The position numbers and the translations under genes were made by a program. DNA of 57,843 nucleotides from Rubrivivax sp. (GTDB lineage Bacteria > Pseudomonadota > Gammaproteobacteria > Burkholderiales > Burkholderiaceae_C), in contig JAHCKS010000026.1 of assembly GCA_026125665.1 (NCBI GenBank), positions 1 through 57,843 of the forward strand, in the 5' to 3' direction. Shown here one piece after another: positions 3,743 through 14,902 of the stretch; the first letter of the stretch is position 1; each line of letters begins with the position of its first letter. The notes under the pieces are model-generated. The model did no database searches, was not told the origin of the DNA, and saw only the letters and a list, made by a program, of their open reading frames with translations.

Positions 3743-4920
3743 AGCAGCCCGCGCGCTGCCAGGCTGCGCATCAGTGCCGAAACGCCGAAGGTCCACGGCG
3801 CGATCTCGTCGCTGTGCCCGACCCAGTTGACGAGCGTGCCGAGCCGCTCGCTGGCAATCGCCACGCGGTCGCCGAGGTGGTGCGTGAAGCCCGCACCCGG
3901 CGCGTCGCGGTCCTGGATCGGCGCGAACATCGTGCCGCAGAACAGCACCATGCCGTCGGGGTATTGGTGGGTGCGGCCCATCGCCGCCTGCACCAGCTCC
4001 AGCGGGTCGCGGCTGATCTTCGACATCGAGCTCGTGCCGTCGAGCACGAAGCCGTCGTCGCCCTCGACCTTCAGCGTGATCTCGGCGCGGCGGATGTCGC
4101 CGAGGCCGAATTGCGCGTCGCACAGGCGGATGAACGGGCCGATGGCGCACGAGCCGTTGTTGTCCTTCGCCTTGCCGAGCAGCAAGGCGCTGCGGCCTTC
4201 GAAGTCGCGCAGGTTGACGTCGTTGCCGAGCGCCGCGCCGACGATCTGTGCACGCGAGTTCACGGCCAGCACGACCTCGGGTTCCGGGTTGTTCCAGGTC
4301 GAGCCGGGGTGCAGGCCGACCGGCACGCCGGTGCCCACCGAAGCCATCGGCGCGGTCTTCGTGAAGATCTCGGCGTCGGGCCCGATGCCCACCTCGAGAT
4401 ACTGCGACCACAGCTTCTGCTCGATCAGCACGGCCTTCAGCCGCATCGCCTCGGGCGAGCCGGGGCGGATGGCGGCGAAGTCCTCGCCGACCTCGGCGAC
4501 GACGCGCTCGCGCACCGCCTGTGCACGCGCCGGGTCGCCGCGCGCCTGCTCCTCGATGACGCGCTCGACCATGCTCGTCGCGAAGGTCACGCCGGCGGCC
4601 TTCACGGCCTGCAGGTCGACCGGCGCGAGGAGATGACGATGCGCCGGGTCGGGGCCGTGCTGCACGGTGCTGGCGAGCCACTCTGCCAGCGGCCCGAGCG
4701 GCGCCCCGGCGTGGCCGCGCACGGCCTCGGCCGCATCGGCCCGCTCCAGCAGCGCGGCCATCGTCGGCGCGAGGGTGCTCATGTCGACGAGCGTGCCGTC
4801 GCGCACCGTGACGAGCGTCGGCCCGCCGCGTTCGCCGGGCTGCCAGGCGCGGCCGACGAGCAGTGCCTGCGCCGCGTCGCGCGGCAAGGTCTCTTCCAAC
4901 GTCAGGGTGCGCGGCCTCAT
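3739..4920 (-). CDS. Fumarylacetoacetate hydrolase (FAH) family protein
   Basis: 393 residues starting at the ATG at 4920. The C-terminal two thirds carries the FAH metal-site pattern: NNPEPEVVL supplies two acidic ligands, followed by GNDVNLRDFEG, GKAKDNNGSCAIGP, the DGTSSMS strand and the MVLFCGTMFAP block. Family members hydrolyse or hydrate/decarboxylate 2-oxo acids with a bound divalent cation in the cytoplasm. The substrate cannot be told from sequence; aromatic or sugar-acid catabolism is typical. The stop codon lies within the large palindrome downstream. The patatin-like gene lies 68 bp upstream on the same strand, so the two may be co-transcribed. Confidence 0.88.
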   Translation of the reverse strand: MRPRTLTLEETLPRDAAQALLVGRAWQPGERGGPTLVTVRDGTLVDMSTLAPTMAALLERADAAEAVRGHAGAPLGPLAEWLASTVQHGPDPAHRHLLAPVDLQAVKAAGVTFATSMVERVIEEQARGDPARAQAVRERVVAEVGEDFAAIRPGSPEAMRLKAVLIEQKLWSQYLEVGIGPDAEIFTKTAPMASVGTGVPVGLHPGSTWNNPEPEVVLAVNSRAQIVGAALGNDVNLRDFEGRSALLLGKAKDNNGSCAIGPFIRLCDAQFGLGDIRRAEITLKVEGDDGFVLDGTSSMSKISRDPLELVQAAMGRTHQYPDGMVLFCGTMFAPIQDRDAPGAGFTHHLGDRVAIASERLGTLVNWVGHSDEIAPWTFGVSALMRSLAARGLL

Positions 4921-4988
4921 CGTGCGGGTCTCCTCGTTCGTGTTCGCGGGTCTTCGGTCGGCGGCGCGGCGTCGCGCCACCGGCGGGT

Positions 4989-5813
4989 TCACTTTGCCAG
5001 CAGCTTCGGCGCCAGCTGCACCAGCGCCGCCTCGCCGGCGTCGATCAACGCATCGACGTCGAGCTGCCGGCGCATCAGGTGGTGCACGTCGAGCTTGATC
5101 ACGTGTTCGGCCTGCCGCGTCTGCTCGCGCGCCAGCGCGTTGGTCAGGATGTGCATCGCCTGGAAGGCGTAGTCCGACGCGGACGTCGGCGCTTCCTCGT
5201 AAGGCCGGTAGGCCACGTCGACGGCGACGATGCGCCGGGCGCCGAGCTTGCGTGCGGCGGCCACCGGCACCGGCGCGGTCAGGCTGCCATCGAGCAGCCG
5301 GCGGTTGGCGATGGGCACCGGTTCGTTCCACACCGGCGCGGCACACGAGGCCTCCACGGCCAGGGCCACCGGGCCGGCGTCGACGACGACGCTGTCGCCC
5401 GAGAGCGCGTCGCTGGCCGCCGTGGCGAACGGGATCGGCAGCTCGGCGATGCGGCGGCCGCCGACGGCGCGCTCGATCTCCTCGCGCAGCGCGTCGTTGC
5501 GGCGGCGCGCGCCGAGCAGCGCCGAGATCGCACCGCTGCCCGACTCCCACTTCAGCCGGCGTGCGACCTCGACGATCTCCGCCGCGCCCAGCCCCGCGGC
5601 CCACAGTGCGCCGATGGCCGCGCCGACGTTGCTGCCGGCGATCGCCGCGGGCTTCAGGCCGATGCGTGCGCAGCCGCGCACGATGCCCACGTGGGCCCAG
5701 CCGTGCAGCGCGCCGCTACCGAGCGCGAAGCCGATCGGCGCGCCGTCGGCCGCCTGCGGCGAGGGGGCTGCGGAGGTGACGGCAGCCGCGGTGATGAAGT
5801 CGCGTCGGCGCAT
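4989..5813 (-). CDS. Patatin-like phospholipase family protein, nucleophile replaced (degenerate)
   Basis: 274 residues. The N-terminus MRRRDFITAAAV resembles a twin-arginine leader, so export is likely. The fold is recognisable as RssA-like patatin: the glycine-rich oxyanion loop is LGSGALHGWAHVG (residues 31-43) and the aspartate motif is LLDGS (Asp175). The nucleophile elbow, normally G-T-S-x-G, reads G60-S61-N62-V63-G64, so the catalytic serine position is Asn (codon at 5628-5630) and a serine sits one residue earlier. The oxyanion loop also has His where Arg is usual. The frame is otherwise intact over full family length, so this looks like a pseudoenzyme or altered catalyst rather than a decayed gene. 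Confidence 0.8.
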   Translation of the reverse strand: MRRRDFITAAAVTSAAPSPQAADGAPIGFALGSGALHGWAHVGIVRGCARIGLKPAAIAGSNVGAAIGALWAAGLGAAEIVEVARRLKWESGSGAISALLGARRRNDALREEIERAVGGRRIAELPIPFATAASDALSGDSVVVDAGPVALAVEASCAAPVWNEPVPIANRRLLDGSLTAPVPVAAARKLGARRIVAVDVAYRPYEEAPTSASDYAFQAMHILTNALAREQTRQAEHVIKLDVHHLMRRQLDVDALIDAGEAALVQLAPKLLAK

Positions 5814-5902
5814 GATGCTCGAGGCTGCGGACCATAGTCGCCCCGGCGGCCTGTTTCAAGCCGGCGCCGGTGAACGCCGGGCGAGCCGGTCGTCGGCGGG
5901 GT

Positions 5903-6304
5903 TCAGTCCACCGGGTCGGCGGCCCGCGGCCGGTACTTCGCGACGAGCTCCGGCGTGAAGTCGAAGCGCTCGGCGGCGAAGACGGCCGAGAAGCACAGCC
6001 CCGCGTCGCCGCCACGCCACAGCGTCACGTACAGCCACTGGCCCTGGCGGCGCAGCAGCAGCACCTGCGTCGGCACGAGCGCCCCGCGCTGGTAGAGCGG
6101 GTAGCGGGCCTCGGCCGCCGCGTGCATGCGCCGGCGGTCGCCGGCATCGAGCACGGCGCGCTCGGCAGCGGCCGGCAGGCGCAGCGCCGGGCTGCCGCTC
6201 ACGCAGCTGGGCAGCTCCATCTCTGCCGCGGGCGCCGCGACCGCGCCGGCCGCCCACCCGGCGAGGCCGGCAACCCAGGCGATGCACCGCTGGCGTGTGC
6301 CCAT
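5903..6304 (-). CDS. Small secreted protein of unknown function
   Basis: 133 residues. The N-terminus has a basic start and a hydrophobic core (CIAWVAGLAGWAAGAVAAP) ending in an AxA-type site, which is a classical Sec signal peptide; the mature protein would begin near residue 27. The mature part has two cysteines (in SCVSG and GLCFS) that could form a disulfide, and strand-like segments such as VLLLRRQGQWLYVTLW. No known family is recognised. It is followed by the patatin-like gene on the same strand and preceded by the zinc-ribbon gene with a 92-bp gap. Confidence 0.65.
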   Translation of the reverse strand: MGTRQRCIAWVAGLAGWAAGAVAAPAAEMELPSCVSGSPALRLPAAAERAVLDAGDRRRMHAAAEARYPLYQRGALVPTQVLLLRRQGQWLYVTLWRGGDAGLCFSAVFAAERFDFTPELVAKYRPRAADPVD

Positions 6305-6396
6305 CCGAGCTTCTCCCGTCGGCCGGGTCGGCGACCCGTCGGCGGCAGTCTCGCGCACCGCGGGGGCCGGCGCAAAGCCCCCGGGTTGCGCGGGCC

Positions 6397-6879
6397 TCAG
6401 GCCACGGCGAGCTCGGCCGAGCGAAAGGCGTGCGCGGAAGCCTTCATCAGGTCGTCGAGCATCTGCTCGCGCGGCTCGACGCTCTCCTGCTGGCACACGC
6501 CACAGCGAAAGGTGGGCAGGTCGACCTGCACGTCGAAGGCGTGCAGGCCGTCGATCTCGACGGTGCGATGGGCCTCGACGCGGCCACTGGCGCCGCCTTC
6601 GAGCACGGCCCCGCAGGCCGGGCAGGCGTAGCGCTTGCGCAGCAGGCCGCGGCGGGCGGCCGGGTCGAGCGGCACCAGCGGCTGCCCGGTCACCAGCGCG
6701 TCGAGCAGGGCGCTGGCGAAGGTCGGCGCGACGAAGCGGCGGTGGCCCTTCGGGCAGGTCATCGACGGCATGTGCTTGATGCTGAGGTGCACGCCGTGCT
6801 CCTCGCCCTCGATGCGCTCGAGGTCGGCCAGCGTCATCTCGCCTTCGCATTGGCGGCAGCGGGTGGTGTTGGGCGTCAT
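6397..6879 (-). CDS. Zinc-ribbon protein with three CxxC pairs
   Basis: 160 residues, with start ATG at 6879 chosen because GGAGGAG lies just upstream. It contains CRQC near the N-terminus, then TCPKGH, CPAC (about residue 88) and CGVC (about residue 128), arranged as rubredoxin-like knuckles that probably bind one or two Zn ions. There is no signal peptide or membrane segment, so it is cytoplasmic. The central part is a histidine-containing region (HGVHLSIKHMPS). It could be a nucleic-acid or protein-binding ribbon; no specific family is recognised. Confidence 0.65.
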   Translation of the reverse strand: MTPNTTRCRQCEGEMTLADLERIEGEEHGVHLSIKHMPSMTCPKGHRRFVAPTFASALLDALVTGQPLVPLDPAARRGLLRKRYACPACGAVLEGGASGRVEAHRTVEIDGLHAFDVQVDLPTFRCGVCQQESVEPREQMLDDLMKASAHAFRSAELAVA

Positions 6880-7082
6880 CGGCTCCTCCGTCACGGGTGG
6901 ACCACGCACGCCGGCCTTCACTGCATTCAGGCCGGCGCGCCCTGACCTCGTGTGACATCCAGGCCTGCCCTGGGTTCCCGTGTTGCGGCGCGACAATGCC
7001 GACGCCGCGCGTCGCGGCCCGGCGTCAGGCCCGCCGCGGACCCGGCGCCTCGGACTTCCTTCCGCAAGCGAGTGCTGCCCCC

Positions 7083-7475
7083 ATGAAGCTTGGCTACACC
7101 ATCCTCTACGTGCCCGACGTGGCCGCGTCGCTGGCCTTCTTCGAGCAGGCGTTCGGCCTGCCCCGCCGCTTCCTGCACGACTCGGGCATGTACGGCGAGC
7201 TGGCCACCGGCGAGACGACGCTCGCCTTCGCGAACCACGCACTCGGCGAGGGCAACTTCCCGGGCGGGCACGTGCGCGCCAGCGAGTCGAAGCAGCCGCT
7301 CGGCATGGAGATCGGCCTCGTCACCGCCGACGTGGCCGCGGCGCACGCCCGGGCCGTGCAGGCGGGGGCGAAGGAACTTGCGGCGCCGTCGACCAAGCCC
7401 TGGGGGCAGGTGGTGTCGTACGTGCGTGCACCGGATGGCTGCCTGGTGGAGATCTGCTCGCCGATGGGCGCGTGA
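7083..7475 (+). CDS. VOC (glyoxalase/bleomycin resistance) family protein
   Basis: 130 residues with the start ATG at 7083 matching the beginning of the first beta strand (MKLGYTILYVPDV). The pattern of two beta-alpha-beta-beta-beta modules is visible: ASLAFFEQAFGL, then TTLAFANHAL, then IGLVTADVAAAHARAVQAG and SYVRAPDGCLVEICSPMG. A glutamate in the last strand (VEICS) and a histidine in the middle are candidate metal ligands. Members are metal-dependent lyases, dioxygenases or binding proteins; the substrate is not predictable. It is divergent from the zinc-ribbon gene and convergent with the ApbE gene. Confidence 0.85.
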   Translation: MKLGYTILYVPDVAASLAFFEQAFGLPRRFLHDSGMYGELATGETTLAFANHALGEGNFPGGHVRASESKQPLGMEIGLVTADVAAAHARAVQAGAKELAAPSTKPWGQVVSYVRAPDGCLVEICSPMGA

Positions 7476-7534
7476 GTGCCCCGCGCGCCGGGCAGCGGGC
7501 CGCCGCGGCCGGCGCGGTGCACCCGGCCCGGCGG

Positions 7535-8554
7535 CTACGGCCGGTGCACCTGCCCCTGCGCGTCCACGGCCAGGAAGTCCACCGCCTGCCGCCGCAGGAA
7601 GGCGAGCGCGTCGTCGCTCTTCAGCATCGCGATCGTGCACATCGAGCCGGCCGCCAGGCACAGCGGCGCCACGACGCTGATGCTGCGCCAGGCGCGCACC
7701 GGCCAGCCCGTGCGCGGGTTCAGCACGTGGCAGTAGCGCTCGCCGTCGGGGCCGATGAAGTAGCGCTCGTAGTCGCCGCTGGTGGTGAGCGCACCGTCGG
7801 AGAGCTCGATGGTGGCCAGCGGCCGCTCGTCGTCGCGCGGGTGGCGGATGGCCATGTGCCACGGCGAGCCGTCGGGCCGCGGCCCGACGAGGCGGATGTC
7901 GCCGCCGAGGTTGACGAAGCCGTGGCCGATCGAGCGCTGCTGCAGCAGCACTGCGGCGCGGTCGGCGGCGTACTCCTTGCCGAAGCCGCCGAGGTCGATC
8001 TCCATGCCCGGGCGCAGCAGCTCGAAGGTGCTGCGCCCGCTGGCGCGTTCCAGCCGCGTCAGCGACCATCCGACGCATTGACGCAGCGAGTGCAGCGTCT
8101 CGTGCGAGGGCATGCGGCCGGCACGGAAGTCCCAGGCGCGGCTGAGCACGCCCGAAGTGATGTCGAACAGGCCGTCGCTCAGCCAGTACATGCGGTCGGC
8201 ATAGGCCAGCAGGTCGGCGGTCTCGTCGTCCACCGGCACCGGCGAGCCGTTGCCGGCGGCGGCGTTGACCTGCGAGACGACGCTGTCGGCGCGGTAGCGC
8301 GAGTACTTGGCCTCGATGCGCCGCACCTCGGCGATGGCCACCTGCGCGGCGTTGCGCGCGTGGTCCTCGCTGACGCGGCCGGCGATGTGCACCTCGCAGT
8401 CGCTGCCCATGGCGCCGAACTGGAACACCCACGCTTCGGCGTGGCGAACGGCGTCCGGTGCCTGGGGGAAGGCGGCGGCGTCGCGCCGGGCCGGCCCGGC
8501 CGCACCGTTCGCGCCATTCGCGCCGCGCGGGCCGTGCCGGGGCGTGCCGGCCAC
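7535..8554 (-). CDS. apbE: FAD:protein FMN transferase, ApbE family
   Basis: About 339 residues. It carries the ApbE signature blocks: FGAMGSDC near the N-terminus, DGLFDITSG, DLGGFGKEYAADRA, NLGGDIR, LTTSGDYERYF and HVLNPRTGWPV, then a conserved aspartate region near the end. ApbE enzymes move FMN from FAD onto Ser/Thr of exported proteins, with Mg2+, at the periplasmic face. It is the last gene of an operon with a TlpA-like thioredoxin, a DUF4266 protein and DUF3570, which holds an ApbE target motif. The start is uncertain: the GTG at 8554 follows the DUF3570 stop (8563) by a few bases, suggesting coupling; a TTG at 8566 is the alternative. No clear lipobox was seen in the chosen start. Confidence 0.88.
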   Translation of the reverse strand: MAGTPRHGPRGANGANGAAGPARRDAAAFPQAPDAVRHAEAWVFQFGAMGSDCEVHIAGRVSEDHARNAAQVAIAEVRRIEAKYSRYRADSVVSQVNAAAGNGSPVPVDDETADLLAYADRMYWLSDGLFDITSGVLSRAWDFRAGRMPSHETLHSLRQCVGWSLTRLERASGRSTFELLRPGMEIDLGGFGKEYAADRAAVLLQQRSIGHGFVNLGGDIRLVGPRPDGSPWHMAIRHPRDDERPLATIELSDGALTTSGDYERYFIGPDGERYCHVLNPRTGWPVRAWRSISVVAPLCLAAGSMCTIAMLKSDDALAFLRRQAVDFLAVDAQGQVHRP

Positions 8555-8562
8555 GGGCGCAC

Positions 8563-9729
8563 TCAAAACCGCCTCGTCAGGCCGATCTGTGCCGAGTACG
8601 CGCGGAACGGCGCCAGGCCCTGCGAGCCGTTGCCGTCCCAGGCCCAGCGGCCGCGCTGCTCGTAGGCCTCGACCTTGCCGTCGATGGTCCAGTCGCGGTC
8701 CACGGCCAGCGCCGCGCCGAGGCCGAGTGCGACGGCACCGAACGACGACAGGCGCTGGTCCAGCGAGATGTAGCGCGGCGGGTTGTTGCGGTCGTAGCCC
8801 ACCGGGAACGGCTCGCCGAGCACCGGGTCGTAGCGCGGCGCGAGGTAGAAGTCGGCTGCCGTCTGCGTGTACAGGCGCAGCGCCGGCAGCAGCCTCACGC
8901 TGTCGCTCACCGGCACCACCCACTCCGCCTGCACCGTGTGCGACTGCACGCCGAAGCTGTCCTGCGTGGCCCGCCAGCTGCTGCGCATCGTCGTGCCGCC
9001 GCCGGTGAAGTGGTGGTTCCAGCGCAGCATCAGCACCGTCTGGCGGCGCTCGCGCGGGCGCTCGTCGAGCACCTTGTACGGGTCGCTGTAGTAGCCGCGG
9101 CCGTCGCTGTAGGCGATGCTCGCCTGCAGGATGTCGGTGCGCGAGGCCACCTTGGTGATGGCGAGCGAAAGCTGCTGCGTGCGCCGCGTCTCGTCGTTGA
9201 CGACGTCGTTCACCGGGTTGATGCGGTCGTCGGAAGTGCCGAGGCCGAGCGCCACCTCGGTGTTCTGGTCCTCGCTCGACCAGCGCAGGTCGAACGACGC
9301 GGCCATCGAGCGGTAGTCGCGCTCGGTCGAGCCGGCGACGCCCGCGCCGACGGCCACGCGGTGCAGGTAGTGCATGACGCGCACCTCGCCGGCCGTGCGC
9401 TTCTCGGTCATGCGCGAGGCGCCGGAGACGGCCGTGTGGTAGCGCGGCGTGGCGCCCGAGACGCTGTCGGCCACCAGCGTGCCGTTGAGCCACCAGTCGT
9501 CGCTGACGAGCGGCGCCACCACCTGGAACGCCGGCGAGACGACGCTGATGCGGTCCAGCCCCGGCTGCGAGTCCTTGTAGGTGAGCGTGCGCAGCGTCAC
9601 CGAGGCCGCATCGGGCTTGCCCTCCGCGCGTGCCGTCGTGGCGACGACGCCGGGCAGCAGCATCGCCGCGGCGACGATCGAGCCCACGGCGGTGCGGCGC
9701 GTGCGCGACGCGCCGCCTCCTTCGGGCAT
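8563..9729 (-). CDS. DUF3570 outer-membrane beta-barrel-like protein with FMN-attachment motif
   Basis: 388 residues. A signal peptide (basic SRTRR, then a hydrophobic AVGSIVAAAMLLPGVVA) ends near residue 35. The rest is a series of alternating amphipathic strands with many aromatic residues and ends in ...IGLTRRF, the terminal Phe typical of outer-membrane barrels. Residues 88-94 read DSVSGAT (9448-9468), matching the D-x-x-[ST]-G-A-[ST] pattern that ApbE flavinylates in NqrC/RnfG-type proteins. A second, weaker copy, AVSGAS, follows at residues 100-105. The ApbE gene is immediately downstream and the DUF4266 gene immediately upstream. Flavinylation here is inference, but motif plus neighbour make it a direct prediction. 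Confidence 0.85.
   Translation of the reverse strand: MPEGGGASRTRRTAVGSIVAAAMLLPGVVATTARAEGKPDAASVTLRTLTYKDSQPGLDRISVVSPAFQVVAPLVSDDWWLNGTLVADSVSGATPRYHTAVSGASRMTEKRTAGEVRVMHYLHRVAVGAGVAGSTERDYRSMAASFDLRWSSEDQNTEVALGLGTSDDRINPVNDVVNDETRRTQQLSLAITKVASRTDILQASIAYSDGRGYYSDPYKVLDERPRERRQTVLMLRWNHHFTGGGTTMRSSWRATQDSFGVQSHTVQAEWVVPVSDSVRLLPALRLYTQTAADFYLAPRYDPVLGEPFPVGYDRNNPPRYISLDQRLSSFGAVALGLGAALAVDRDWTIDGKVEAYEQRGRWAWDGNGSQGLAPFRAYSAQIGLTRRF
9448..9468 (-). other. Predicted FMN-attachment motif DSVSGAT in DUF3570
   Basis: These seven codons encode Asp-Ser-Val-Ser-Gly-Ala-Thr. The terminal Thr (Thr94) would be the acceptor for phosphoester-linked FMN by analogy with NqrC and RnfG. The acceptor protein and the transferase are adjacent genes. 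Confidence 0.6.
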
Positions 9730-9748
9730 GCCGCCTTCGCCATCCTCT

Positions 9749-9970
9749 TCAGTTGCAGCCACAACCACCCCCGCCGACGCCGTAGCCGCCGGAGGCGGCC
9801 TCCTTGCTCTCGTACACCTGCTGGTCCAGCCGCGTGGCGAGCGGGTTCCACGACATCGCCATCTCGGGCCGCGCGATGAACGACTTGTCCCATGCGGCCG
9901 GGCCCGTCGGCCCGGCACAGCCGCCGAGCAGGCCGAGCGCGGCGAGCGCCGGCGGCGGCCAGTGCGCCAG
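9749..9970 (-). CDS. DUF4266 small Cys/Gly-tailed lipoprotein, start codon unresolved
   Basis: The frame reads a lipoprotein-type leader (ALAALGLLGGC, lipobox LGGC), then AWDKSFIARPEMAMSWNPL, YESKEAASGGYG and the terminal VGGGGCGCN. The C-terminal SKEAASGGYG...GGGCGCN pattern is the hallmark of DUF4266. Between the in-frame stop of the upstream thioredoxin (10013-10015) and the lipobox there is no ATG, GTG or TTG. The coordinate given uses a CTG at 9970; initiation could also be coupled or non-canonical, or a base may be wrong. It lies between thioredoxin and DUF3570. Predicted location is the periplasmic side of a membrane, with two closely spaced cysteines available for thioredoxin or metal. 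Confidence 0.7.
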   Translation of the reverse strand: MAHWPPPALAALGLLGGCAGPTGPAAWDKSFIARPEMAMSWNPLATRLDQQVYESKEAASGGYGVGGGGCGCN

Positions 9971-10012
9971 CGCCGCCTCGCCGCCGCGGCGGGCGAACCA
10001 CCTGCGCCGCGC

Positions 10013-10633
10013 TCACGGGGCGGCCCGGGGCTGCGCCACCATGGCGCCGCCGGTCAGCGCCGCGGTGGCGCGCAGCGCCTCGGCGATCGAGGCTTCGAGC
10101 TGCTCGCGGTCGCGCGCCGTGAAGCCGGCGTGCACCAGCAGCACCTTGCCCTGCGCGTCGATCAGCATCGAGGTCGGCATCGTCTTCACGTCCACCGACT
10201 TGGCGAACGCGCCTTCGCGGTCGAAGACGACGGAGAACGCTGCCGGGTGGCTGGCGAGGAAACGCTCGGCGTCGCTGCGCTTCGCGTCGACGCTGACGGC
10301 GACGATGCGCAGCCCCTGCGGGCCGAACCTGGCGTGCATCTCGTTCATCCACGGAAACGACTGCCGGCACGGCGCGCACCACGAGGCCCAGAAGTCGACG
10401 TAGGTCAGCCGCGCGCGCCCGGCCACCAGCGGCTGCGGCCCGGCGGCGGAGTCGAGCCAGCGCTGCGGCAGCGTCTCGCCCACCTGCACTGCGCCGGCCG
10501 GCACGGCGGCCACGGCGAGCAGCAGCGTCGCGGCGGCGGCCAGGCGCCGGCGCATCGCGGCGGCGGGGCGACCCGGTTGCCGGGGCGTTGCGAAGAGGCA
10601 CGTGGCCAGGCACACGCGCGGGGGTTCGTTCAT
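10013..10633 (-). CDS. TlpA-like periplasmic thioredoxin
   Basis: 206 residues from the ATG at 10633, preceded by AGGAGG eight bases upstream. The N-terminus has a long leader whose hydrophobic core (LAAAATLLLAVAAVPAGA) ends near residue 48. The domain is a TlpA/ResA-type thioredoxin: YVDFWASWCAPCRQSFPWM contains the CAPC active site, and VKTMPTSMLID supplies the cis-proline loop. The product should be a periplasmic disulfide reductase. It heads the operon with DUF4266, DUF3570 and ApbE. Its substrate may be the terminal Cys-Gly-Cys of the DUF4266 protein (inference). The stop codon is followed at once by the DUF4266 frame. Confidence 0.87.
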   Translation of the reverse strand: MNEPPRVCLATCLFATPRQPGRPAAAMRRRLAAAATLLLAVAAVPAGAVQVGETLPQRWLDSAAGPQPLVAGRARLTYVDFWASWCAPCRQSFPWMNEMHARFGPQGLRIVAVSVDAKRSDAERFLASHPAAFSVVFDREGAFAKSVDVKTMPTSMLIDAQGKVLLVHAGFTARDREQLEASIAEALRATAALTGGAMVAQPRAAP

Positions 10634-11181: not shown

Positions 11182-11208
11182 TCGTCGATGGAAGGACCAG
11201 GAGGCCGC

Positions 11209-13587
11209 ATGCCCAAGAAGATTCGTGCCGCGACACGTTCGACCGCCCCGCTCGGCCCGCCTGGCGCCCGGCACGCGCCACGGCGGCGCGTGCCTTTGCT
11301 GCTCACGGCCCTGGCGGGTGCGGCGCTGCTCGCCGCCTGCGGCATCGACGGCGACGACAGCGGCTCCGGCCGCGCACGCCCCGCGGCCACCAGCGCCTGC
11401 ACCACGGCACCGGCGCTCTTCACGAGCTCGGTGTGGGCCAGCTTCGAGGAGACCTGCACCACATGCCACCTGCCGGGCGGCATCGCCGGCGGCTCGGCGC
11501 TCGTCTTCGCCCTCGGCGGCGACCCGATCGCCAACTACAACATCTTGCGCGACTACACGCTCGCCTACCCGGCGATGCTGCTGTCCAAGTCGATCGGCGA
11601 GCCGAACCACGGCGGCGGCAAGCCCTTCGTCGACGCCGGCTCGCAGCGCTACCGCGACCTCGAGTCGCTGATCCCGCAGATGACGGCGCAGTCGTGCGCC
11701 ACGCGCAGCGCCACCGCCGGCGGCAGCGAAGGCGGCGGCTTCTGGAAGGGCGTGGGCATGAGCAGCGACGCTGCCGTGCTGGCCAAGGCGGCGGTGCTCT
11801 TCGCTGGGCGCAACCCGAGCGGCGCCGAGAGCGCGGCCGTCGCATCGGGTGGCACCGCCGCGCTGCGCGACACGATCCGCGGCTACATGCAGGGCCCGGC
11901 GTTCGAGCGCTTCCTCGACGACGTCGGCGACACGCACTTCCTGAGCCCGGGTGCCATCGCGCGCGGCAACGGCGGCTACAACGCCGCCGACTGGCCGAGC
12001 GCCGGCAGCGTGCTCGGCGCCACCGGCGTGACGCAGGCCGACAACGCGACGATCAACCGCTTCCAGGCCAGCGTGCGCCGCGAAGGCGTCGAGCTGATGA
12101 AGCACATCGTGCGCAGCGAGCGGCCGTACACCGAGATCGTCAGCGCCAACTACACGGTCGTCAACGGCCTGCTGGCGCGGCTGCTCAACGCCACCGTCGA
12201 GGGGGCCTTCGTCAACCCCGACGACGACAACGAGTGGCGCCCGGCGACGCTGCCCGACCAGCGCCTGGGCGGCGTGCGCGAGCACGCCGGCGTGCTGTCG
12301 ACGCAGGCCTGGCTGTCGCGCTTCCCGACCACCGACACCAACCGCAACCGGCACCGCGTGAACATGCTCTACAAGCAGTTCCTCGCCACCGATGCCACGG
12401 CGCTGGCGGTGCGGCCGCTGGAGAACCCCGCCACGTTCCGCGTGCCGACGGTGGAGAACCCGGCCTGCGCGGCGTGCCACAACACCATCGACGCGGTGGC
12501 CGCCGGCTTCCAGAACTGGAACGAGGCCAACCGCTACCTCTCGGTGCGCACCAACGGCATCGACCACGCGCTGCCGCAGAGCTACCGCTCGAACAACTAC
12601 CCGCGCGACAGCGGCAACATGGCCTTCTTCCGGCTCGGCGACAACTGGTTCCGCGACGGCAAGGAGCCCGCCTACGGCGCGACGCTGATGCCCGGCGGCT
12701 TCACCGGCAACAGGACGGCGCTGAAGTGGCTGGGCGAGCAGGTGGCCGCCGACTCGCGCTTCGCGCTCGGCGCGGTGCACTTCTGGTACGAGGGCCTTGT
12801 TGGCCGCCCGGCGCTGAAGCCGCCGCTGGACTCCGCCTCGCCGCAGTTCGCCGCGCAGCTGGCCGCCTACAACGCGCAGAACGAGGAGCTCCGCACGCTG
12901 GCCACGCGTTTCGCCGCGGGCAACGGCCGCGGTGCGTACAACGTCAAGGACCTGCTGGTCGAGCTGATGCTGAGCCCGCTGACACGGGCCGAGAAGGCGG
13001 CCGACGCGGCCACGCGCGCCGGCGAGCTGCACGACCTGGGCAGCATGACGATGCTCTCGCCCGCGCAGCTCAACCGCAAGCTCACCGGCCTGGTGGGGCA
13101 GGGCTGGAACGAGTTCAACAACCCGTACGCCGGCTGGGCGCTGAACTACGGCGACTTCGACGGCATCTCGCGCACGACGAAGGCGCAGTCGCACACGATG
13201 ATGCAGACGATCACCATCGACCGGATGCTCTCGGTGCGCAGCTGCACCTTCGCGCGCGACGACTTCGTGAAGCCGGCGGGCGAGCGGCTGCTGTTTCCCG
13301 GCGTGACGCTGCAGGACACGCCGGCCAGCGCCGCGGGCCTGGCGGCCATCACGGCCAACGTGCGCCACCTGCACAAGTGGCTGTGGAAGGAGGACGTGCC
13401 GGAGAACGACCCCGAGGTGCAGCGCACGCTGAAGCTGTTCACCGACACCTGGGCCGAACGCGCCGCGGCGCCCGCCCGGCCCGTGAACTGCGCCTTCAAC
13501 AACGGCAACGACCCCACCTACAGCGGCCGTGCCTGGGCCGCGGTGCTGGCCTACATGCTCGGCGACGTGAAGTTCCTCTACGAGTGA
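11209..13587 (+). CDS. Dihaem c-type cytochrome lipoprotein, uncharacterised family
   Basis: 792 residues. The start ATG at 11209 is preceded by CAGGAGG; a second ATG 21 bases upstream is possible. The leader ends in a lipobox (LLAAC, Cys44). Two haem c sites are visible: CTTCH at residues 83-87 and CAACH at residues 420-424, far apart. The large region between and after them is helical (for example SERPYTEIVSANYTVVNGLLAR, trimmed here to the recognisable YTEIVSANYTVVN) and resembles PSD/DUF1588/1592-type cytochromes in layout, although I cannot assign a family. It is followed by a Tat-exported DUF1501 gene after 58 bp, a pairing common for such cytochromes. Probable periplasmic electron-transfer or oxidase role; the substrate is unknown. 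Confidence 0.75.
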   Translation: MPKKIRAATRSTAPLGPPGARHAPRRRVPLLLTALAGAALLAACGIDGDDSGSGRARPAATSACTTAPALFTSSVWASFEETCTTCHLPGGIAGGSALVFALGGDPIANYNILRDYTLAYPAMLLSKSIGEPNHGGGKPFVDAGSQRYRDLESLIPQMTAQSCATRSATAGGSEGGGFWKGVGMSSDAAVLAKAAVLFAGRNPSGAESAAVASGGTAALRDTIRGYMQGPAFERFLDDVGDTHFLSPGAIARGNGGYNAADWPSAGSVLGATGVTQADNATINRFQASVRREGVELMKHIVRSERPYTEIVSANYTVVNGLLARLLNATVEGAFVNPDDDNEWRPATLPDQRLGGVREHAGVLSTQAWLSRFPTTDTNRNRHRVNMLYKQFLATDATALAVRPLENPATFRVPTVENPACAACHNTIDAVAAGFQNWNEANRYLSVRTNGIDHALPQSYRSNNYPRDSGNMAFFRLGDNWFRDGKEPAYGATLMPGGFTGNRTALKWLGEQVAADSRFALGAVHFWYEGLVGRPALKPPLDSASPQFAAQLAAYNAQNEELRTLATRFAAGNGRGAYNVKDLLVELMLSPLTRAEKAADAATRAGELHDLGSMTMLSPAQLNRKLTGLVGQGWNEFNNPYAGWALNYGDFDGISRTTKAQSHTMMQTITIDRMLSVRSCTFARDDFVKPAGERLLFPGVTLQDTPASAAGLAAITANVRHLHKWLWKEDVPENDPEVQRTLKLFTDTWAERAAAPARPVNCAFNNGNDPTYSGRAWAAVLAYMLGDVKFLYE

Positions 13588-13645: not shown

Positions 13646-14902
13646 ATGCAACGCAGAGAGTTCCTGTCGCTGGCCGCACGTGCCGGCGTCGCCATCGCCC
13701 CCTGGGCGCTGATCCCCGAGGCGCAGGCCCAGATGTACACCGGCCGCATCCTCGTCAACATCTATGCCGACGGCGGGCTGGACCAGAGCTCGTGGGCCGA
13801 CCCGCGCGAGAGCGACCGCACGCTGAACAACTACGCCGCCGCCGGCACGCCGGCCGGCGTGGCCGGCAGCATTCGCTTCGCGCCGATGGGCAACAACGCG
13901 GCGTTCTTCGGCGCGCACTTCCGCAACATGCTCGTCATCAACGGCGTGCACAGCGAAACCAACGACCACGGCGCGGGTGCCCGGGCCCATGCCGTGGGCC
14001 GGCTGGACATGGGCTACCCGAACATCTCCGAGCTCTTCGCCGCCACCTACGGCAAGGGGCTGCCGATGGCCTGGCTGGCGAGCGGCGGCTACCGCACCGG
14101 CGTCGGCCTGATGGCACCGACGCCGGTGCCCGACGCGAACTCGTTCCGCGCGCTGAGCCAGCCCAACGCCGCCTCGGCAACGAACGACTTCATGAAGCAG
14201 GCCGACGTGAGCCGCACGCAGGCCGTGCGCGCCGAGCGCATGCGTGCGATGCTGGCCCGCGGCGACCTGCTGCCGCGCCAGAAGGTGGCGGTGCAGGAGT
14301 TCATCGACGCGGCCGACTCGCGTGCGCTGCTGCAGCGCGTGGCCGCCGCCACGCCGGCCAACTTCGACCCCTTCCAGCAGGCGCACATCGCGCTCATCGC
14401 CGCTCAGATCGGCCTGACGACGACGGTGCAGCTTTCCACCGGCGGCTTCGACACGCACAGCAACCACGACAACGGCATGGCGAACGCGCTGCCGCGGCTG
14501 ACCAACCTGGTGGACTACGTGTGGCAGAAGAGCGCCGAGATGGGCCTGGCCAACCGGCTCTTCGTGCGCATCTTCTCCGAGTTCGGCCGCACGCCGCTGA
14601 ACAGCGGCAACGGCAAGGACCATCACGAGGTGGGCACGCAGATCCTGATGGAGGCCAACGCGCCGTGGGGCAACCGCGTCTTCGGCCAGAGCGGGCCCAG
14701 GCACCAGGCGGTGAAGATCTCCCCCACCACCGGGCGCGAGGACGCTGCCGGCTTCGTCATCCGGCCGCGCCACATCCACGCGGCGCTGCGCAGCTACCTC
14801 GGCATCCAGACCACCGACCCGCGCTTCGACCTCAAGGTGCCGGCGGGCGAGCTGTTCGACTTCTTCAACCCGGCGTTGAACACGGGGTACGCGACGATGT
14901 AG
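13646..14902 (+). CDS. DUF1501 family Tat-exported protein
   Basis: 418 residues. MQRREFLSLAARAGVAIAPWA is a clear twin-arginine signal. The mature part shows the DUF1501 (sulfatase-like alkaline-phosphatase fold) pattern: ILVNIYADGGLDQSSW at the start, NDHGAGARAH, TTTVQLSTGGFDTHSNHDN, VRIFSEFGRTPLNSGNGKDH. The acidic and histidine residues in these blocks are candidate metal ligands. Family members often neighbour haem-containing DUF1588/1592-type proteins and their reaction is unknown. Here it follows the dihaem lipoprotein gene, and the two probably form an exported complex or pathway. Confidence 0.85.
   Translation: MQRREFLSLAARAGVAIAPWALIPEAQAQMYTGRILVNIYADGGLDQSSWADPRESDRTLNNYAAAGTPAGVAGSIRFAPMGNNAAFFGAHFRNMLVINGVHSETNDHGAGARAHAVGRLDMGYPNISELFAATYGKGLPMAWLASGGYRTGVGLMAPTPVPDANSFRALSQPNAASATNDFMKQADVSRTQAVRAERMRAMLARGDLLPRQKVAVQEFIDAADSRALLQRVAAATPANFDPFQQAHIALIAAQIGLTTTVQLSTGGFDTHSNHDNGMANALPRLTNLVDYVWQKSAEMGLANRLFVRIFSEFGRTPLNSGNGKDHHEVGTQILMEANAPWGNRVFGQSGPRHQAVKISPTTGREDAAGFVIRPRHIHAALRSYLGIQTTDPRFDLKVPAGELFDFFNPALNTGYATM

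Follow-up and report, generated by a model that had tools for sequence, protein, structure and literature searches.

This analysis concerns a four-gene operon on the minus strand of a Rubrivivax sp. contig (JAHCKS010000026.1), of which a stretch of 57,843 nucleotides, in the following called the window, was analyzed. Between positions 7535 and 10633 the operon encodes, in this order, a thioredoxin, a DUF4266 lipoprotein, a DUF3570 protein and an ApbE flavin mononucleotide (FMN) transferase (Table 1). These four same-strand genes had been proposed in the original prediction and were borne out by the open frames together with their Pfam matches, with E-values of about 1e-15 for Redoxin/Thioredoxin_8, 2e-19 for DUF4266, 7e-50 for DUF3570 and 7e-75 for ApbE (PF02424). 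The ApbE frame overlaps the stop codon of the DUF3570 gene. For the thioredoxin, position 10555 is the likelier start, as judged by eye from the leader. The open frame of DUF4266 extends from 9749 to 10012, and from the thioredoxin stop to the lipobox it contains no ATG, GTG or TTG, CTG at 9970 being the only candidate start. The DUF4266 genes of the four closest relatives (L052–L055) begin with ATG, unlike that of the window, and an assembly error at this place is possible in the draft genome, which is 88.6% complete and divided into 268 contigs.

Table 1. Features of the operon and of its divergent neighbours in the window.
Feature	Coordinates	Strand	Remark
TlpA/ResA-like periplasmic thioredoxin, CAPC	10013..10633	minus	Pfam and sequence
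DUF4266 small lipoprotein, lipobox LLGGC, Gly-rich tail GGGGCGCN	9749..9970	minus	start uncertain
DUF3570, signal peptide and cysteine-free mature part, predicted 16-strand outer-membrane barrel	8563..9729	minus	
Flavinylation motif 1, DSVSGAT, residues 88-94 of DUF3570	9448..9468	minus	
Flavinylation motif 2, SGAS, residues 102-105 of DUF3570	9415..9426	minus	
ApbE FAD:protein FMN transferase without signal peptide; start TTG 8566 or GTG 8554	7535..8566	minus	
Lipoprotein with two CxxCH (CTTCH ~11455, CAACH ~12466)	11188..13587	plus	divergent neighbour, possible partner
DUF1501 protein with start like that of twin-arginine translocation (Tat) substrates (MQRREF)	13646..14902	plus	divergent neighbour, possible partner

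Relatives of the DUF3570 protein were collected in two samples. A scan of genome contigs with a three-sequence alignment yielded 395 relatives, and the loci of the 80 most similar ones were retained; they derive mostly from Burkholderiales, with some Chlorobiaceae and others, and all counts given below refer to them unless stated otherwise. For a wider sample, 398 genomes of the phylum were scanned for PF12094 (DUF3570), which occurs in 29 of them; together with the window genome these supplied 31 loci. A scan of viral contigs returned no relative.

The motif DSVSGAT of the window DUF3570 had been predicted to be a target of ApbE, and the comparison with relatives agrees with this. The pattern DxxSGA[ST] occurs in 79 of the 80 DUF3570s, the remaining one reading EHVSGAT, and is rare in the other open frames of the same loci, where D..[ST]GA[ST] was counted 11 times in 858442 amino acids (0.013 per 1000). 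The alignment of DUF3570 homologues that the original prediction had proposed as a check confirmed the conservation: in 51 aligned sequences S56, G57 and A58 of motif 1 as well as P60 (mature numbering) are invariant, and D is present in 98%. Motif 2 had been regarded as weaker; with G in 78% and A in 80% of these sequences it is not weak. At least two [ST]GA[ST] matches are found in 65 of the 80 DUF3570s, and a few of the second matches lie off the homologous place. PF12094 is the only Pfam match of the window protein at E <= 0.1, and it has no FMN_bind domain (PF04205). That the motif is always near apbE held in part: ApbE was found in 67 loci, in 64 of them directly behind DUF3570, whereas in 13 none was found though the motif is intact. 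In the wider sample, apbE lies no farther than about 1.5 kb from 22 DUF3570s, and 21 of these contain a [ST]GA[ST] site.

Clusters of ApbE, DUF3570, thioredoxin-like and DUF4266 genes, with and without DsbD, have been described by Meheust et al. 2021 (PMC8238504), the only hit of a full-text search for DUF3570 or DUF4266 among open-licence PMC papers. There, two conserved [ST]GA[ST] motifs are reported for ApbE-associated DUF3570s, in-gel evidence is given for flavinylation of both motifs in the DUF3570 of Chlorobium luteolum, redox cycling is proposed for the CXC tail of DUF4266, a hybrid thioredoxin/flavin route is suggested, and DsbD is named, for some bacteria, as the source of the electrons. 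The core of the interpretation had been published there, including, for those bacteria, the electron source that the original prediction had called not described; the proposal of the prediction that the thioredoxin may service the small lipoprotein is in line with the published hybrid route. The window operon is an additional member of the published cluster. It shares the four families, the two flavinylation motifs and the CXC tail, differs in that its thioredoxin best matches Redoxin/Thioredoxin_8 rather than PF13899, which is named in the paper and is not among the matches of the window protein, and lacks an adjoining DsbD, as do 316 of the published clusters. In the passages of PMC8238504 that were consulted no mention was found of barrel sites on the outer side, of a leader-less ApbE, of frames joining CxxCH motifs and immunoglobulin-like (Ig-like) repeats to a thioredoxin, or of the second-type operon described below.

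With AlphaFold2 on 51 sequences, DUF3570 was modelled as a 16-strand barrel of 353 residues with a mean predicted local distance difference test score (pLDDT) of 92.6 and a predicted template modelling score (pTM) of 0.86. The 50 listed rows of a fold comparison were outer-membrane barrels, most of them aligned over nearly the whole model; no row among these 50 is named as a flavoprotein, which excludes nothing. The window protein further has a leader (by eye), an even strand number and a C-terminal aromatic residue, as outer-membrane barrels do. In the model, loops after odd strands comprise 2 to 40 residues and those after even strands at most five. Both ends of known barrels with even strand number are periplasmic, so the loops after odd strands should be extracellular. 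The two FMN motifs are located in the loop that joins strand 3 to strand 4, which belongs to the long-loop side, and the model predicts both on the extracellular side of the barrel. The same half, which comprises 203 of the 353 positions, holds 24 of the 27 invariant columns (p 0.00045), including all 11 charged ones.

Classical ApbE proteins are periplasmic lipoproteins (PMC12052999), and the window enzyme has neither their signal peptide nor their lipobox. The leader score was that of the 10 consecutive residues with the highest hydrophobicity downstream of any start codon, in the case of ApbE ahead of the catalytic core, which in the 64 directly linked loci starts about 9–57 codons past the end of DUF3570. 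A score of at least 2.0 was reached by none of the 58 scorable linked ApbE (nine of the 67 had no room for the scored stretch), by 74 of 80 DUF3570s, 73 of 79 DUF4266 proteins and 54 of 69 thioredoxins. The window ApbE scored 0.4 (L155; L001), none of the 19 scored ApbE (of 22) in the wider sample attained 1.6, and the sole ApbE in a locus of Chlorobiaceae (L119) shows no hydrophobic stretch. Among 30 ApbE loci from the bacterial family, the window's own included, nine reach 2.0, all with RR ahead of the stretch. The window genome contains only two ApbE matches, the operon copy and another that belongs to a second DUF3570 operon, and no match to FMN_bind or DUF2271. The absence of a leader-like stretch from the linked ApbE implies flavinylation before export, and from the sequences we infer this order of events. 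Modification of an unexported chain appears feasible, since the C. luteolum DUF3570, cloned like a signal-peptide-truncated DUF2271, was flavinylated; it was mostly found in the pellet and was purified denatured (PMC8238504). Leader-less cytosolic ApbE have been described from Klebsiella pneumoniae and trypanosomatids, where the targets named are intracellular fumarate reductases (PMC12052999). They resemble the window enzyme in having no signal peptide and differ in these internal targets, as the presumed target in the window carries a signal peptide and is modelled as a barrel. The outer-membrane flavoprotein of the original prediction finds support in motif conservation, gene linkage, barrel model and the published flavinylation of a relative; its account of the leaders overlooked that the linked ApbE frame carries none at either start, and the predicted extracellular side of the motifs had also escaped it. 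Thirteen ApbE loci of the same family (L132–L144) all score below 1.6, and most of them are, by the look of the score, not linked to DUF3570.

On the thiol side of the operon, the tail GGGCGCN ends the window DUF4266 and 74 of 79 relatives, and C-G-C belongs to the invariant columns of 42 DUF4266 sequences. The DUF4266 model has a pLDDT of 64.7, its tail not being confidently folded. As the mature DUF3570 contains no cysteine, a thiol donor would have to pass its electrons straight to FMN, and the candidate that suggests itself for this donor is the glycine tail with the CxC. A DsbD match is present in 34 of the 80 loci, mostly just downstream (one weak, two upstream on the other strand), and a TrxB match in 13, four of them weak; the DsbD of L085 and that of L119 were confirmed by Pfam, as was a pyridine-nucleotide disulphide oxidoreductase in L085. 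The DsbD_TM proteins of the window genome are encoded on other contigs (C20 and C225). As a separate observation, two loci (L077 at 8056, L088 at 8152) have a DsbD match after DUF3570 and intact flavin motifs, no ApbE being found in either locus.

A second thioredoxin-DUF4266-DUF3570 module is encoded in the window genome on contig C52 (G000:C52, L032, 191-8986). It includes an HZS_alpha-like CxxCH protein at 4761-8123, the site homologous to the flavin motif reads DAVSNAS, and its own ApbE has no leader-like stretch (L138, score 0.89). In ten loci of this second type the module sits in a larger gene set, which in L041 comprises an HZS_alpha-like protein, an SH3/barrel protein, an OMP_myx_plus barrel and TPR proteins. 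CxxCH occurs two or three times in the HZS_alpha-like proteins, and the flavin motif often contains N or S instead of G. In seven of the ten genomes ApbE is located about 6-18 kb away. For DUF3570 clusters without a near apbE, loss of the flavin together with the enzyme was considered and dropped, as ApbE was found farther off in the genomes concerned. Nine loci of the wider sample have no apbE within about 1.5 kb; seven of them show S[NS]AS (in L002, SGAT occurs in the leader part only), L028 has [ST]GA[ST] at the homologous place and L019 slightly farther on. ApbE lies about 6-12 kb off in five of the nine (G000, G246, G366, G015 and G007), and in the remaining genomes on other contigs or about 100 kb away, L019 being cut by a contig end.

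Taken together, we consider it slightly better than an even chance (about 0.55) that the operon gives rise to an electron conduit of the outer membrane leading from thiol to flavin, with a cytoplasmic ApbE and flavins at the extracellular mouth of the barrel. The leader-less ApbE would place FMN on the still unfolded DUF3570, at one of its SGA[ST] motifs or at both, and the chain would then be exported and fold into the 16-strand barrel with its flavins at the outer mouth. Thiol electrons, presumably from a DsbD/CcdA protein whose gene lies in another part of the genome, would be taken up by the periplasmic thioredoxin and given to the CxC that ends the DUF4266 tail; from there they would move on to FMN and finally to an outside acceptor, possibly CxxCH proteins encoded nearby. 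In this chain we infer the step from DUF4266 to FMN, the direction of the electrons and the acceptor. In MtrCAB-type haem conduits of the outer membrane, a multihaem subunit sits inside a barrel. The window module is not a member of this type and resembles it in that redox cofactors are held by an outer-membrane barrel; covalent FMN and thiols would take the place of the multihaem subunit. A more far-reaching version, which we regard as tentative, is a haem-free wire across the outer membrane, in which FMN would be loaded onto the nascent barrel before export, travel as covalent cargo and be displayed on the surface, while the CxC of DUF4266, reaching in from the periplasm, would transfer electrons from thiols to the flavin, which would serve acceptors outside the cell or haems on its surface.

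Several points weigh against the proposed conduit. Counts on the best 80 of 395 relatives are skewed to near kin of the window protein, two of the 13 loci without ApbE and with intact motif end less than 700 bases from DUF3570, and absences in the window genome are soft because of its 88.6% completeness. The leader calls are based on a simple hydrophobicity score: seven of the 58 linked ApbE do reach 1.6, and no more than 14 of the 31 DUF3570s in the wider sample reach 2.0, so that the score may miss leaders in distant DUF3570s or their anchors may be off. Two of three second-type ApbE inspected have a leader-like start, and the published cloning text leaves undecided whether the ApbE of C. 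luteolum possesses a leader (PMC8238504). The barrel was modelled as a lone chain, without membrane or partners; its only stretch with pLDDT below 50, residues 65-68, touches motif 2 (67-70 of the model), and at a conservation cut-off of 90% the bias towards the long-loop half is weaker (47 of 70 columns, p 0.064). Finally, no DsbD family was found among the ten window neighbours scanned.

The same conduit could also arise if ApbE reached the periplasm by an unrecognised route and, like the classical enzymes (PMC12052999), flavinylated DUF3570 before or during barrel assembly. The leader-like starts of the second type speak for such a route, which is nevertheless unlikely given that none of the 58 scored linked ApbE attains 2.0 and that the core begins so closely behind the end of DUF3570. 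The possibility that the flavins work in the periplasm, in iron reduction or thiol repair, with the barrel as a scaffold and no electrons crossing the outer membrane, likewise seems improbable to us: 25 published clusters with the iron transporter VIT1 (PMC8238504) and the nature of thioredoxin and DsbD as periplasmic or inner-membrane thiol parts agree with it, but loop lengths, invariant residues and the matches, over almost the full length, to barrels whose orientation is known place the motifs outside.

Electrons might flow inwards instead, an extracellular substrate being oxidized at surface haem proteins and FMN and the electrons entering a periplasmic thiol or haem pool. CxxCH proteins do adjoin the module and no sequence feature fixes the direction; however, the DsbD genes and the less frequent TrxB genes that adjoin the module suggest a reductant from inside, and we give the inward direction only a small chance. 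It would be surprising if the motif were merely decorative and ApbE served another, cytosolic protein, leaving DUF3570 unflavinylated in this organism. The known leader-less ApbE do modify cytosolic fumarate reductases (PMC12052999), but the motif recurs in nearly all relatives, the window genome offers neither an FMN_bind nor a DUF2271 protein, and flavinylation of a relative has been published (PMC8238504).

If the conduit as proposed above exists, covalent FMN on the outer face would be charged by thiols and, being loaded before export, would bypass the need for periplasmic FAD. It would provide a surface electron outlet for Gram-negative bacteria without multihaem cytochromes, and a case of ApbE flavinylation before export combined with a thiol-driven surface flavoprotein. 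The placement on the outer side and the leader-less ApbE make the published idea directly testable.

In 14 of the 80 loci the thioredoxin forms the end of one open frame with CxxCH and Ig-like repeats. Pfam identifies Ig-like repeats and Redoxin in L070 (4051-6696), with a cytochrome c match below the cut-off, as well as in L085 (4006-6684), with one CxxCH and no cytochrome match. The Ig repeats of these shared frames (L085, L070 and 12 more loci) are of the HYDIN/ASH type. A related frame was detected by phmmer in 28 further loci, some with weak scores and two on the other strand. In the subgroup L090, L100, L101, L110 and L122 a related frame lies downstream of DUF3570, which in L100 is a glycosyl hydrolase of family GH6, and a further frame lies upstream, in L122 a PSD/PSCyt-type protein.

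A Pfam scan of ten window proteins revealed no electron-transfer candidate beyond the two divergent neighbours, the other matches being TPR, 2OG-Fe(II) oxygenase, glyoxalase, patatin and FAA-hydrolase. The divergent lipoprotein has PSCyt3/PSD4 matches below the Pfam cut-off and represents the only PSCyt3 match in the genome; its neighbour is one of three DUF1501 matches. As a fixed part of the system both genes were rejected, because phmmer found them in only three of the 80 loci (L052, L054 and L055), all very close relatives. PSD/PSCyt matches do recur above the cut-off in L122 and below it in L189 (PSD2), and phmmer with the window proteins misses both. Six loci of Chlorobiaceae (L119, L127, L129, L130, L120 and L121) contain two to four DUF3570 matches each, and two of them, L119 and L127, also have a nearby gene whose product contains eight CxxCH.

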